NCBI GenBank assembly: GCA_038503075.1
Contig: JBCAML010000003.1
Coordinates: 1,922,001 to 1,986,000, forward strand
DNA: 64,000 nucleotides
Reading direction: 5' to 3'
From: Gyromitra esculenta
Taxonomy: Eukaryota > Ascomycota > Pezizomycetes > Pezizales > Discinaceae
How positions within the stretch are numbered: the first letter of the stretch is position 1; each line of letters opens with the position of its first letter. The notes beneath the pieces were generated by a model that saw only the letters and a program-made list of their open reading frames with translations, did no database searches and was not told the origin of the DNA. A program made the position numbers and the translations under genes. Shown piece after piece: positions 35,246 through 41,231 of this stretch.

Positions 35246-36051
35246 TTAGATCAAGGCCCTCCATACCTCCGCATCCTTCACCTTTGCCTTCTCCGCCTTC
35301 TCCAGACTATTATTATTTCCCCTCTCTAGAATAAACACGCCCCCCTCTCCCACGATATCGTCTGCCTTCCTTCCTACATCTGCAAGCCCTGCTAACACAG
35401 TCTCGATCTGTACCACCGCTTTCTTGTTTTCCTCGGTTTCTTTCCTAATCTTCTCCAGCTGCTCTTCCATCCGTAGGCACAATGTTTCACGAGCTTGGTG
35501 GGGGCGGTATTCATTGATCAAGTGATGCATATTAAAGAGGATGGTCTCGAGAGCAGATGTTTTCTCGTGGAACTATAGCTCTCCATCGTCAGCTACCTCT
35601 CACCCGTAAGCATCAAAAACGGAGAAGTAGTAGAGCATACCTGCTCTGGTGCAACCCCCATTACTCCTACAAGCTCTAGATAATTCAACAACAAACTTTT
35701 CGACAGCCTCCTGAGCTCCAGCGTCCTATCAAGACTACTCTCCTTCTCCTTCCCATTCTGCGAGCCAGACGATGTTCGTGACGGATACAACTGCTGGATC
35801 CCGTGATCTTCAAGAGACGGGTATATCTCCGGAAGTGTCCACGTTTCGCCAAACGCGCGATAGCTTTTCTCCGGTGGCGGCGGAGGCACTAAAACTCGCA
35901 GTTCTTCCGGGAGCTCCTCGGCTGGAGGAAGTGTGCCGTCGGAGTTGCGCAGTCCCTTGAGCGCAGCGAGATTTTCAGAGGTGAAGGAGGTGAAGTACTT
36001 TGGCGGCGGAGGGAACGCAGCAGTGAGCGCACCTGGGGGTTGCTCGGCCAT
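35246..36051 (-). CDS. MED7: Mediator complex subunit Med7
   Basis: A middle-module subunit of Mediator that contacts Med21 and RNA polymerase II (family knowledge). Exons are 36051-35641 and 35572-35246, 245 residues. The N-terminus has the conserved proline-rich start (PPPPKYFTSFTSENL) and PPPPPEKSYRAFGETW. The central LLLNYLELVGVMGVAPEQ block joins FHEKTSALETILFNMHHL across the intron, followed by RPHQARETL, the classical Med7 signature. The C-terminal half is a coiled coil (LEKIRKETEENKKAV) that pairs with Med21 in known structures. It is divergent with the lipid phosphatase gene at 36315. Confidence 0.93.
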
Positions 36052-36314
36052 GGCGATGTACAGAAAGCGGGCTTAGTATCCGGAGGTAATTCGTGTGGAG
36101 GGGGTTGTTGGCTGGGTGCCAGGAACAGATCTGCGGTTGGTTGCGCAGAAGCGAGAACTCGAACTGGTACCTGGCTGGGTATCCATCCCTAACCTCGAAT
36201 CAGCATACGACCACCTACCGTAAGACCATCCTCCGTCAATCATCCGCAAAAGGAAACTCTCAGCTACCTCTTCGACTTTCCTTCTTTCCTTCTTCCAAAT
36301 TTCCCCACAGCACA
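36052..36314. promoter_or_regulatory. Short divergent promoter MED7 / lipid phosphatase
   Basis: 263 bp separate the two start codons, so the promoters and 5' UTRs must overlap here. A CT-rich stretch (36275-36300) precedes the phosphatase ATG. Confidence 0.5.
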
Positions 36315-37451
36315 ATGCCCGGCTCAGCTACGGCGAAGGCCCATTACCGTGGCGAGAGCACTATAGGGACGTTCCGGCGGTTCTGGCAGGTTTGTTTCGC
36401 CCACGCAGCTTTTGTGATGTAGTCAACACCCACGAGAATAATTATTCACAGCGGCAAATTTTAATACAGAAATCATACTTTGCAGATTGGGTCGGGCTGC
36501 TTCTCATAGCCCTTGAAAACCTAGCCATCGCATTCCTAGAGCCGTTTAAGCGCATGTTCAGGTACAATACATGTACTTTCACCCATCCCAACAGCTTGAT
36601 CTTAACATCTGCACCCGCCTAATAGCCTCGATGATTTATCGATTCAATTTCCACATGCCGAAATCGAGCGCGTGCCTGTTCCCATGCTCCTCGCATACGC
36701 CATTGGTCTCCCAGCACTCTTCATAACAATCTATACCCTACTCATCGCTTCGAAGAAGTCCACTGCTTCCCGACTCCACCAACTCCACGTTAGCATCCTT
36801 GGATTAGCAATATCTTTAATGTTGACGGTCTTCGTTACCGACCTAATCAAGAACGGGGTTGGTAGACCTCGCCCTGATCTTATTGCAAGGTGTAAGCCGA
36901 AGGAGGGGACAGCGAAACACGGACTTGTAGGCTGGGAGGTATGCACAGAGACAGACCACCACACGCTACACGATGGTTTCAGGAGTTTCCCAAGCGGTCA
37001 TAGTAGCTTCTCGTGGAGTGGGTTGGGGTATTTAAGTCTGTTCCTTTTCGGGCAGCTAAGGGCATTGCGGCCAGGAAGCGATATGACGAGATTTGTGATC
37101 GCTGCCATGCCGGCTCTTGGTGCGCTATTGATTACGATCTCGAGGACAGAGGATTATCGACATGACGTGTATGATGTGTCTATTGGGAGCTTTATCGGGA
37201 TGGCGGTTACGTACTATTGCTATGTATCTACTCCCCATCATTGTATTCGTTCGTGTTTCTTGTCAGCACGGAAGTTAATATTAACGGGTATGACCCGCTT
37301 CTAGAGGCGATATTTTCCGGCCCTGACATCTCGCTCCTGCGACGAGCCCTTCACAGATAGAGGCGATGACAGCAAAAACAACAATTCACGGGGTGGCTTC
37401 GAGATGGTGCCAACAAGAGGCGAGAACCCTGATTTGGAGATGGGTGAGTGA
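36315..37451 (+). CDS. PAP2-family lipid phosphatase (diacylglycerol pyrophosphate phosphatase type)
   Basis: Probably dephosphorylates diacylglycerol pyrophosphate and phosphatidate at a membrane (Dpp1/Lpp1 family). Exons are 36315-36389, 36470-36561, 36626-37223 and 37305-37451, 303 residues. The three catalytic motifs are present: KNGVGRPRP, SFPSGHSSFSWSG and SRTEDYRHDVYDV. Membrane segments include WVGLLLIALENLAIAFL, LLAYAIGLPALFITIYTLLI, LGLAISLMLTVFVTDLI and later helices, in line with the six-span topology. The C-terminal tail is short and polar. The second intron contains TACATGTA at 36568. The final exon might use another donor at GGTGAGTGACAG, but the stop at 37449 is the simpler end. 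Confidence 0.9.
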
Positions 37452-37981
37452 CAGACCCGATCAAATTGGTACCTGCTCACCCTCTATAGGAAGAAGCGAA
37501 TGCGATGATTGGGAATTGGATTCATGAAGGGAAGGGTATATCATACAGTATCATGACGAAACGATTGATTTTTTGTATTTTTTGTATTTTCCTTATCCCT
37601 CCAAAGTAGGTTTTGATTTAGCAGTACGAGGGGGATTTGACACTCAAGCGTGTATACTAGATTAAGCGATAGAACAGGTGGCTTGCGCGAAATCCCCCCA
37701 TGCTGGGTGCCCGTACTATTACCTCGGATTGAAATAACACAGTTCTCTTCCTCCGCCTTCTAAGAAAAATTAGTAGCACAGTACAGTACATTAAGAGCTA
37801 CTCAAGACAGAAGAAAGACAGCAAAAGCATCCTTCCCAAATAACTTAGACATCTAGATAGTCAATTTTGAGAGAGAAAATCATAACAATAAGTGAAAACA
37901 CTTGCCACCCCGGATACATGTAGTAATACAAAACATAATTATAAGTCTAGTTGGTTAGCAAACAAGATATAATGACCACTT
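37452..37981. other. Intergenic, convergent
   Basis: 3' flanks of the phosphatase and the ketopantoate gene; TACATGTA at 37915. No gene seen. Confidence 0.55.
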
Positions 37982-39334
37982 CTAATCCTCCTTTTCCTCA
38001 AACTCTGCGCGTCGTTTCTCAACAATTGCTTCAAATTCCTTTAACTCTTCCGCGGAGATAGGGTACGTATGCTCCACACCGGGATAACTTCTATTTTTGA
38101 CCTCATCTGTTGGGAACGCCCTAGTTAGCTGTTATCTAAACTCTTCTACCTTTCCATGGGGTAGAAATACCTCTATAGTGCTCCATAGCCTTCTTACTCC
38201 TCTCAAAGATATTTTCGTATCGTTTTACAAACTTTGGCATAAATCTCCCCTCAGGGAAATTCCCTAACATGTCGATCTGCACCAGTACCTGCCCACCACA
38301 GCCATTGCCAGCGCCAATACCGATAGTAGGTATCTTGAGCTTCGAGGAAATAAGAGCTGCTACAGGTGCAGGGACAGCTTCAAGAACCATGCTAAAGCAC
38401 CCAGCCGCCTGCAAGGCGAGAGCGTCTGTCAGGAGCTTTGACGCGGAGGAAGCCGTCTTGCCTTGGACGCGGAATCCACCGAGCGCATGGGAGCGTTGGG
38501 GTGTCAAGCCAATGTGCCCGAGGACCGGGATACCAACAGATGTTATGCGGGCGATTGTGGAGGCCATTTCTGCACCACCTTCGAGTTTCACGGCCTGTAT
38601 TAAGTGTTAGGTGGGTCATTGGCGAGGCTCGCGGTGAGCTAGAGAAATGAGTGAAGGCTTCACCTCTACTCGCCCGTCCTGAATCATCTGTATTGAAGAG
38701 TGTACTGCGTGCTCAGGGGAAATCTCGTAGGATCCCATCGGTAAATCGCCAACCTTCACTTCCAACTGTCAGAGAGAAAAGCCTCAATTGCTTGTAATCA
38801 TAATCCAAAAAGAGAGAAATCACCGTGAAAGCCGATTTAACTGCTCTTGATACCGCTCGACAATGGTGTAGCATATCCTAATAATAAAAGAGTATTTGTC
38901 TGCAAGGTCTTTTCTATTAAGCTCAGAGTTCAACAAGAGTTATTACATCTAATTTTAACTGATTTGTATCCTGAGATCCTCAAGTTAACACGTGATAACC
39001 GGTTGCGAAAGCTATGCGAGTGATGGGCTGTGATACACACCTCCATTCCCAGCCCCACCATGGCTAATGAGTCTCCAACGAGAATCATATCCATGTGTGC
39101 CTGGTCAGCGGCTAGACCCGAAGGAAAGTCGTGGGCCGTCATCATGGCTATTGGAACATTGTTTGCATGCATATTCCGCAATGTGTTAATGGTGACCTTC
39201 TTTCTTGGGGGAGTGGCGTTAGGGGAGACGGGCGAGTGAGAGGAGTAGTTCCTCTGAAATACTACGGGAAGCCGTTGACATGATCCTGTAGCTGTGAGAA
39301 CACTAGTGGCTGAGCGAAAGATCAAACGTGACAT
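37982..39334 (-). CDS. ECM31: 3-methyl-2-oxobutanoate (ketopantoate) hydroxymethyltransferase
   Basis: The first committed enzyme of pantothenate synthesis, forming ketopantoate from ketoisovalerate; PanB in bacteria. Exons are 39334-39041, 38970-38947 (24 nt), 38877-38824, 38765-38664, 38594-38171 and 38106-37982, 340 residues. The Arg/Ser-rich N-terminus (MSRLIFRSATSVLTATGS) looks like a mitochondrial presequence. Conserved blocks: TAHDFPSGLAADQAHMD, ILVGDSLAMVGLGME (metal-binding region), DMLHHCRAVSRAVKSAF, LPMGSYEISPEHAV, VKLEGGAEMA, GHIGLTPQ and PTIGIGAGNGCGGQVLVQ. The 24-nt second exon encodes DTNQLKLD and is needed for the normal spacing between GLGME and DMLHHC. The last junction chosen (AGAG|GT to AG|ATGAGG) rebuilds HYRDEVKNRSYPG; an alternative GTAGAA donor lies 21 nt further. 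Confidence 0.92.
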
Positions 39335-40025: not shown

Positions 40026-41231
40026 ATGAGTTCCCCAAAAAGGAGAATAGAAACCGATGTAAGTTTGATTCCTCCTAGTTTCACTCTGTATCAGTAAATT
40101 AATGGTTACTCCTACATCTAGGTCATGAGGTATAACCTCCATACTCCACCCCCACGACCCTATGGAACCTACACTCCCTTAGCCAGTTTCTAGATACCTA
40201 GAGTAGAGGAAACATCGCTAACCACTCTTGTTTACAGGCTGTAAGTTTTAGATAGCTTGGTAGCTCTAAACCAGTTAAGCAAATTATTAACAATAACCTG
40301 GGATTGTAGCTTGATGAGCGACTATGAAGTTACTCTCGTCAACGATAATAGTATGTTCCATCCAGACTATCCAATATAGACTTGCTTATAGGAACTAACA
40401 TGACCAAAGTGTAATTTACCACCAGAGCGACTGTCCCATAATTTCTAAATTTCTCACGTGATCTAGGCAAGAATTCTACGTTCGCTTCAAGGGTCCCGAT
40501 GAAAGTATGTACACCACTCTTCATTTTTGTCAGCTGCAACCTATATCTGGAAAAGGAGATTTAGGGTCTGTGGGCAAGAGGAAGGGGGCTATATATCCTT
40601 GGCCTACTATAAACGCCCCTCGATAGAGCAGTAGCTAACCTTTGCTCACCAGCTCCCTTCGCTGGCGGCAACTGGAAGGTACATGTCGAACTTCCGGATC
40701 AGTATCCCTACAAAAGTCCATCTATCGGATTTGTCAACCGTATCTTTCACCCAAATATTGATGAGCTGTGTGCAGTCCTCCCCTTCCCCTGAGTCTCTAT
40801 TCCCATACAGATACAGAGAGCTGACCCAGTGGGGGCAGAAGCGGAAGTGTCTGCCTTGATGTCATCAACCAGACATGGTCTCCCATGTTCGATATGATCA
40901 ACATCTTTGAAGTTTTCCTCCCGCAACTATTGCGCTACCCGAACCCTACAGACCCTTTGAATGGCGAAGCTGCGGCTCTATTGATGAGAGAGCCAAAACA
41001 GTATGATCTCAAAGTCAAAGGTATTTCCTCCACCCTCTAATGACAGATCACGCACACACACCTCGTATCGGATTCAGAAGAACTAAACTAGGAGCAGAGT
41101 ATGTCAATAAATACGCAACTAGAGAAGCTGCCGACGCTGCTACGGACGAAAGCGAGAGCGATGATGACATGTCTTCTGTGGGGTCTTTCGATTCTGGAGA
41201 TGAGGAACCAGCTGGTACCATGGAAGTTTAG
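40026..41231 (+). CDS. UBC8: Ubiquitin-conjugating enzyme E2, UBC8/UBE2H type, with microexons
   Basis: An E2 that in yeast works with the GID/CTLH ligase in degrading gluconeogenic enzymes (family knowledge). Proposed exons: 40026-40058, 40122-40129 (8 nt), 40238-40240 (3 nt), 40310-40350, 40410 (1 nt, less certain), 40467-40504, 40653-40767, 40839-41020 and 41098-41231, giving 184 residues. Visible parts are [68 protein letters not shown] with the catalytic cysteine (SVCLD), [18 protein letters not shown], and the acidic tail [17 protein letters not shown]. Branch sites and GT/AG ends are canonical at most introns. The UBC fold is complete only if the small exons are included. Upstream and on the other strand is the ketopantoate gene. 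Confidence 0.92.
40122..40129 (+). other. UBC8: 8-nt microexon of the E2 gene
   Basis: Flanked by ACATCTAG and GTATAACC; it encodes V-M and two bases of the next codon. Needed to continue RIETD into the conserved VM(K/R)LLMSD. Confidence 0.85.
40238..40240 (+). other. UBC8: 3-nt microexon (GCT) of the E2 gene
   Basis: Upstream is a canonical branch site and acceptor (CGCTAACC then TTTACAG); downstream is a perfect GTAAGT donor. The three bases complete AGG and begin CTC, turning VM-S-LMSDY into VMRLLMSDY, the length found in yeast Ubc8 (VMKLLMSD). Confidence 0.75.
40410..40410 (+). other. UBC8: Possible 1-nt microexon (T) of the E2 gene
   Basis: The preceding exon ends in A before GTATGT, and the following exon begins with G after ATCTAG. 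Only an inserted T makes the conserved Met of NDNMQEF. ACTAACATGACCAAAG is a good branch site with a weak acceptor, and GTAATT a fair donor. The alternative is a single 112-nt intron from a weak GTTCCA donor at 40355, which inserts a serine (NDNSMQEF). Confidence 0.45.

Follow-up and report, generated by a model that had tools for sequence, protein, structure and literature searches.

The 64,000-nucleotide stretch of Gyromitra esculenta DNA analysed here (the window; the source genome comprises 47.1 Mb in 23 contigs) carries a Ubc8-type gene on the + strand, which runs from an ATG at position 40026 to a TAG at 41229–41231. Its neighbours at 35593–39334 are ordinary, with Med7 (–), a PAP2-family protein (+) and a ketopantoate hydroxymethyltransferase (–, in at least two pieces). 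Comparison of the predicted protein with its relatives supports the locus product as an E2 ubiquitin-conjugating enzyme of the Ubc8/UBE2H type; the E2 activity of Ubc8 works together with the GID/CTLH ligase. Among the matches listed, the window protein lies nearest to Pezizales, and the four closest transcript-like contigs (a working label defined below) encode P0002, P0006, P0008 and P0009. P0002 is 98% identical to the protein query used in the first search for relatives, a query that had R in place of M at residue 29. In a domain search P0002 matched PF00179 at 1.4e-38, and an NCBIfam search gave no match; its best PDB matches were 8pmq_E (E2-24 kDa, 7.6e-68), which we take to be yeast Ubc8, and then 8pjn_2 and 2z5d_A (E2 H). 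P0002 aligned without gaps to residues 1–176 of 8pmq chain E and is colinear with the window protein, bearing out the assignment to the UBC8-type E2 enzymes made in the earlier note. The AlphaFold2 model of P0002 (mean pLDDT 49.7) served solely to place a helix at residues 4–16, and the core of P0002 is identical to that of Morchella snyderi P0012.

Enumeration of every possible cut of the DNA into exons left a single parse that yields all 184 residues with GT-AG introns. Introns other than GT-AG were rejected, as the count was still one after GC-AG, AT-AC and introns down to 20 nt had been allowed, and loosening residues 14–16 to K/R plus hydrophobic residues gave no extra parse either. In this gene model the 5′ half of the gene is a chain of tiny exons (33, 8, 3, 41, 1 and 38 nt), followed by coding exons of 115, 182 and 131 nt and the stop codon. 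Both tiny internal exons, GCT (3 nt) and T (1 nt), are needed for the N-terminal helix and first strands of the protein to align with Ubc8 (via P0002) without a gap. Human UBE2H, by comparison, shows a one-residue gap near residue 27 against P0002, so that the length at this position is not fixed outside fungi.

Table. Exons and introns of the predicted Ubc8-type gene (positions in the window).
Feature	Position	Strand	Description
Coding exon 1	40026..40058	+	33 nt, 11 residues
Intron 1	40059..40121	+	63 nt, GTAAGT..TAG; 25th percentile of 107 introns
Exon 2	40122..40129	+	8 nt, GTCATGAG
Intron 2	40130..40237	+	108 nt; donor GTATAA, branch GCTAACC at about 40217–40223, acceptor TTTACAG
Exon 3	40238..40240	+	3 nt, GCT; ends the R14 codon and begins the L15 codon
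Intron 3	40241..40309	+	69 nt; donor GTAAGT, branch ATTAACA at about 40286–40292, acceptor TTGTAG
Exon 4	40310..40350	+	41 nt, 3′ end AATA (phase 1)
Intron 4	40351..40409	+	59 nt; donor GTATGT, branch ACTAACA at about 40394–40400, acceptor CCAAAG
Exon 5	40410..40410	+	1 nt, T, middle base of the Met29 codon A-T-G
Intron 5	40411..40466	+	56 nt; donor GTAATT, weak branch site, acceptor ATCTAG
Exon 6	40467..40504	+	38 nt, 5′ end G CAA GAA TTC (phase 2)
Exon 7	40653..40767	+	115 nt
Intron 7	40768-40838	+	starts GTGTGC, ends GGGCAG
Exon 8	40839..41020	+	182 nt, encodes C85 (presumably the catalytic cysteine)
Exon 9	41098..41231	+	131 coding nt plus TAG

The GCT exon is very probably real. The one gene model found for the protein depends on it, and the coordinates and lengths that the earlier note had given for it and for its two flanking introns were all right on recheck, as was the peptide VMRLLMSDY that translation gives when GCT is included. 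The same note held that skipping GCT deletes one residue; the protein indeed becomes one residue shorter, but the resulting VMSLMSDY shows that R-L is replaced by S rather than merely deleted. The splice sites of GCT are present and of normal strength, from which its inclusion in the mRNA may be inferred, with a predicted junction of ATGAG-GCT-CTTGATG in the cDNA, as opposed to ATGAG-CTTGATG after skipping. When both strands of the window were scanned for the pattern CTRAY-N5..22-YAG-NNN-GTAWGY, the GCT site was the only occurrence, and the same pattern with a spacing of 4 nt or 9 nt also occurred once each. A 7-nt exon reading GCTGTAA was rejected, given that the score of the second intron then drops to 12.5.

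The single-nucleotide exon T at 40410, missed in the earlier note, is the more extreme feature of the two. The phase-1 end of exon 4 (AAT A) can be joined to the phase-2 start of the following exon (G CAA) only through an additional base, and the T located between ACTAACATGACCAAAG and GTAATT was the only solution of the parse enumeration that gives the family peptide NDNMQEF. One nucleotide thus stands between AG and GT and joins the phase-1 end to the phase-2 start, with a predicted cDNA junction of GATAATA-T-GCAAGAATTC (or AATAGTAT-GCAAG without T). Leaving T out shifts the frame and brings a stop after residue 79. No parse of exons 4–6 gives NDNQEF, NDNRQEF or NDNSKQEF, and the NDNRQEF reading of these exons was rejected for that reason. 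The earlier statement that 3-nt exons are among the smallest known is true, though 1-nt exons have been published and one apparently lies in the very same gene.

The splice signals were scored against introns of the same genome. For this purpose, 15 proteins were aligned to 37 of 40 own-genome loci, 24 loci passed the score threshold, and the 23 with introns yielded 107 reference introns, among which the summed donor, branch and acceptor score of each intron was expressed as a percentile. Introns 2 and 3 ranked at the 58th and 67th percentile, in line with the earlier description of both as normal, and introns 4 and 5 at the 62nd and 7th. Both introns beside GCT are thus ordinary, as is intron 4 on one side of T, while intron 5 on its other side is weak. 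Single elements ranked lower in places, as with the donor of intron 2 (15th percentile), the acceptor of intron 4 (4th) and, further downstream, the acceptor of intron 7 (3rd), an intron with a good branch site (GCTGACC). The introns of 56, 59 and 69 nt are shorter than the genome median of 72 nt, and the 108-nt intron is below the 95th percentile (148.7 nt, with a maximum of 295 nt; n = 107). The smallest of the 84 internal exons in the reference genes measured 13 nt, although the intron penalty of the aligner means that exons much shorter than this are not found by it.

Chance occurrence of such exons was gauged in 4000 dinucleotide-preserving shuffles of 40130–40309 (180 nt), with the first 6 and last 30 bases kept, counting microexons of up to 12 nt, those in which both introns reached at least the 5th-percentile score, and those about as good as observed. 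At this first place, VM[KR]xLMS was restored in 123, 30 and 0 of the 4000 shuffles, respectively, and any in-frame microexon of up to 12 nt arose in 2717, 798 and 1. At the second place (40351–40466), DNMQEF was restored in 47, 6 and 2 of 4000 shuffles, with 420, 90 and 36 for any in-frame microexon. Exons that restore the family peptide equally well therefore rarely arise by chance (0 and 2 of 4000).

Relatives were collected with three protein searches, keeping the best 120 of more than 5700 matches each, which gave 284 distinct proteins. Sorted by source, with taxa grouped from general knowledge according to the names printed in the records, these comprised 56 transcript-like proteins, 205 annotated Pezizomycotina proteins, 21 annotated proteins of fungi outside Pezizomycotina and two plant proteins, which were dropped. 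Transcript-like is our working label for proteins whose ORF is unbroken by introns on unnamed contigs (jgi, lgn, ena or merc), those of stated length measuring 0.9–7.3 kb; an RNA origin of these contigs is plausible rather than proven. For 54 of the 56, the nearest annotated core was found among the 205, at 83% identity or more. Scans for the gene in genome contigs recovered no fungal DNA of it (three archaeal or bacterial matches at 28–35% identity), and a scan of viral contigs gave no match.

All but three of the 56 transcript-like proteins listed carry the residues rebuilt by GCT (M[KR] and two further residues before MSD); the exceptions (P0006, P0008 and P0009) start at M17, downstream of GCT. 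None of the 53 that cover this place has the one-residue-short form, and the single Met that needs T is found in all 56. P0002 itself reads VMRLLMSDY, while the annotated M. sextelata protein (P0007) reads VMSLMSDY, the product of skipping GCT at the locus studied here.

The annotated Pezizomycotina proteins presented a different picture. Relative to the consensus, indels occur at residues 11–17 in 145 and at residues 26–31 in 173 of the 205 listed annotations, compared with at most 20 of 205 in each of the eight remaining bins, which extend to residue 147. Because the second and third queries carry such scars themselves, their lists are enriched for scarred proteins. The list obtained from the unscarred query alone had indels at residues 11–17 in 21 of 46, at residues 26–31 in 30 of 46 and in any other bin in at most one of 46, and 36 of its 46 proteins had an indel in at least one of the two places. 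No scar was found at the first place among 53 transcript-like proteins, at the second among 56, or at either in the 21 proteins of fungi outside Pezizomycotina. Of the 205 annotations, 45 have the normal form at the first of these places, and 11 do at the other.

The forms of the indels at the first place fit errors around a tiny exon. The 62 annotations (of 205) that are one residue short fit a skipped 3-nt exon, with the AA or AG of exon 2 immediately followed by a donor. Another 14 read VMK[YC], that is, AA/GTATG or AA/GTGTG (slashes mark splice boundaries), and 12 read D-DV[CR], that is, with an acceptor just before GAT; 17 with VMKM plus read-through were left out of this support. The Aspergillus fumigatus protein P0235, which reads LTEWQ-D-VC, fits CTGAC..CAG/GAT/GTATGT.

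At the second place, S[KEMTLN]Q occurs in 24 of 205 annotations, in keeping with the +4 shift by which a donor in phase 1 would be made to match an acceptor in phase 2, and S..RQ, with both ends visible, occurs in 18. Together these 42 fit a donor in phase 1 and an acceptor in phase 2, the situation left by a missed 1-nt exon. Left out of this support were 48 unparsed annotations and those reading S..other (19), K (20), M[YFCH] (17), other..RQ (24) or other forms (7). RQEF was found in 67 and VQEF in at least 24 of the 205, and neither in the transcript-like or other fungal proteins listed. VQEF fits one phase-1 intron and no 1-nt exon. Since such VQ endings point to a single intron, the notion that every scar at the second place marks a 1-nt exon was dropped. 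M. snyderi is among the VQEF proteins and seems to be without the 1-nt exon, so that the presence of this exon appears mosaic.

Two Aspergillus niger proteins, P0224 and P0260, can be explained by a single DNA read in two frames, which held for none of 2000 shuffles of one of them, and this DNA would read T/GTATGC after a Gln codon, or CAG/T/GTATGC if that codon is CAG. From PFAGG on, the transcript-like P0018 agrees with three A. niger models at 143 of 143 residues; it reads VMKML and NDNMQ, normal at both places. The misread A. niger and A. fumigatus proteins thus fit the same 3-nt and 1-nt exons. In P0238 and P0247 (Penicillium) and P0275 (Monascus), GHEDV[CR] suggests that the 8-nt and 3-nt exons form one exon of 11 nt, which in turn suggests an intron that was lost or never gained. 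The earlier expectation that related fungi keep the 3-nt exon fits many annotated proteins and does not extend to these three, in which it looks fused. Conservation being read here from proteins, these patterns suggest that distant moulds also carry both tiny exons and that gene predictors often err there.

The observations made directly, namely the sequence features, the uniqueness of the gene model, the splice scores and the patterns in the proteins and annotations of relatives, have to be weighed against readings that do without one of the exons. GCT could usually be skipped within one 180-nt intron (40130–40309) that gives VMSLMSDY, a product that stays in frame, with an intron score at the 21st percentile and a counterpart in exactly the sequence annotated for Morchella P0007 as well as in the 62 one-residue-short annotations. 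However, not one of the 53 transcript-like proteins covering the place is one residue short, 180 nt exceeds the 95th percentile of the 107 own introns, and skipping would open a gap in the N-terminal region, where P0002 is ungapped against the PDB chains of Ubc8 and UBE2H, so that we consider usual skipping extremely unlikely. Slightly less improbable, and still very unlikely, is a gene without the 1-nt exon in which exon 4 is extended by 4 nt to a donor GTTCCA at 40355. The resulting peptide NDNSMQEF is in frame, the parse is the only one found for it, and an S[KEMTLN]Q ending of the same kind occurs in 24 of the 205 annotations of relatives. Yet this donor scores –0.8 (percentile 0 of 107 donors) and the intron sum lies at the 2nd percentile, and an extra residue of the NDNSMQEF type is present in none of the 56 transcript-like proteins. 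A need for exactly one base also looks as an indel error in the assembly would, but T stands between ACTAACA..AAG and GTAATT, and 42 of 205 annotated proteins of other species, together with the two-frame case of A. niger, fit the combination of a donor in phase 1 and an acceptor in phase 2. We rate an assembly error the least probable of these readings.

It is likewise unlikely, if less remotely so, that intron 3 is often retained on purpose, cutting off the N-terminus and lowering Ubc8 output, a reading compatible with the inclusion of both exons in the normal mRNA. Three of the four closest transcript-like contigs (P0006, P0008 and P0009) encode 168 aa from M17, which is the ORF predicted for retention of intron 3 here, and for Trichoderma Xlr2 some transcripts are reported to keep an intron next to a microexon (PMC11121469). 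This regulation rests on three contigs of uncertain origin, however, which a partial contig or unfinished pre-mRNA would explain equally. The 168-aa contigs may therefore reflect retention of intron 3 or another cause, and are a lead rather than a result.

We regard it as highly probable that the locus encodes a Ubc8 E2 in whose normal mRNA both GCT and T are included. Splicing by intron definition, as suggested in the earlier note, would be a reasonable mechanism, here proceeding in steps. GCT would rebuild Arg14-Leu15 of the N-terminal helix, and T would supply the middle base of the Met29 codon and keep the frame. Because the sites flanking the tiny exons are only 3 and 1 nt apart, both introns of a pair can hardly be engaged at once. 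Each intron of 56–108 nt would instead be recognised as a unit, and one intron would be removed first, after which the remaining site would be used at the new junction. Both the inclusion of the exons in the mRNA and this stepwise splicing are inferred. The two pairs of intron positions would date far back in Pezizomycotina, and where one intron of a pair is absent, the tiny exon would be fused to its neighbour.

In Fusarium CYP621A, a single-nucleotide exon that its authors call the first in a fungal gene (PMC12940212, 2026), a phase-1 end that cannot be joined to a phase-2 start is likewise reconciled by one base between AG and GT, and the exon was also missed in annotation (PMC12940212). 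Unlike CYP621A, which was established with RNA reads in Fusarium species, the present case concerns a conserved E2 with an additional 3-nt exon and protein evidence across several groups of Pezizomycotina (PMC12940212). The 1-nt exons of plant APC11 and VPS55, confirmed by RNA-seq and RT-PCR, resemble T in being conserved, missing from annotations and absent in some lineages via intron loss, but belong to plants and to other genes (PMC4674806, PMC8831610). For the Arabidopsis APC11 exon, intron definition and stepwise removal have been proposed (PMC4674806). The 3-bp micro-exon of Drosophila homothorax is of the same size as GCT and alternatively spliced, whereas inclusion of GCT looks constitutive (PMC7392893). 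Trichoderma Xlr2 likewise contains a microexon missed by annotation in a filamentous fungus, but one of 20 nt and regulated by glucose (PMC11121469). Fungal stwintrons, like the pairs described here, consist of two closely apposed introns that need consecutive splicing, but they differ in that a splice element of one intron is interrupted by the other, whereas in the present pairs these elements are whole and the introns stay 3 and 1 exonic bases apart (PMC6616335). Accordingly, the donors GTAAGT (40241) and GTAATT (40411) are intact and exonic bases lie between the introns; nor does AG directly precede GT, as in a zero-nucleotide recursive splice site, the sequences being AG/GCT/GT and AG/T/GT. 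No report of a microexon in fungal UBC8 was found in the open-access literature by titles and abstracts, and PMC5007530, which holds the words UBC8 and exon, concerns no UBC8 microexon in the part available. While 1-nt exons are thus already known from plants and Fusarium, what is unusual here is that a single conserved gene holds two tiny exons and that both appear to be old.

With less confidence, we lean towards a further-reaching account in which the 3-nt and 1-nt exons have been obligatory and spliced stepwise since the Pezizomycotina ancestor, many public gene models of the enzyme in moulds are wrong at two fixed places, and the 1-nt exon represents an intermediate step in the sliding of an intron by one base. 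The neighbouring intron positions A^TG and AT^G would offer a route to one-base intron shifts, as lineages that lost one or the other flanking intron would keep an intron at A^TG or AT^G.

Exons of 3 and 1 nt probe the lower limit of exon recognition, and since both are apparently kept in several moulds, some with good laboratory genetics, the order of splicing and intron definition would be testable there. Many public models of one and the same protein also appear to be wrong at two shared places, with an indel in at least one of them in 36 of the 46 proteins of the least biased list, and the pair of tiny exons suggests a route for the sliding of introns by a single base.
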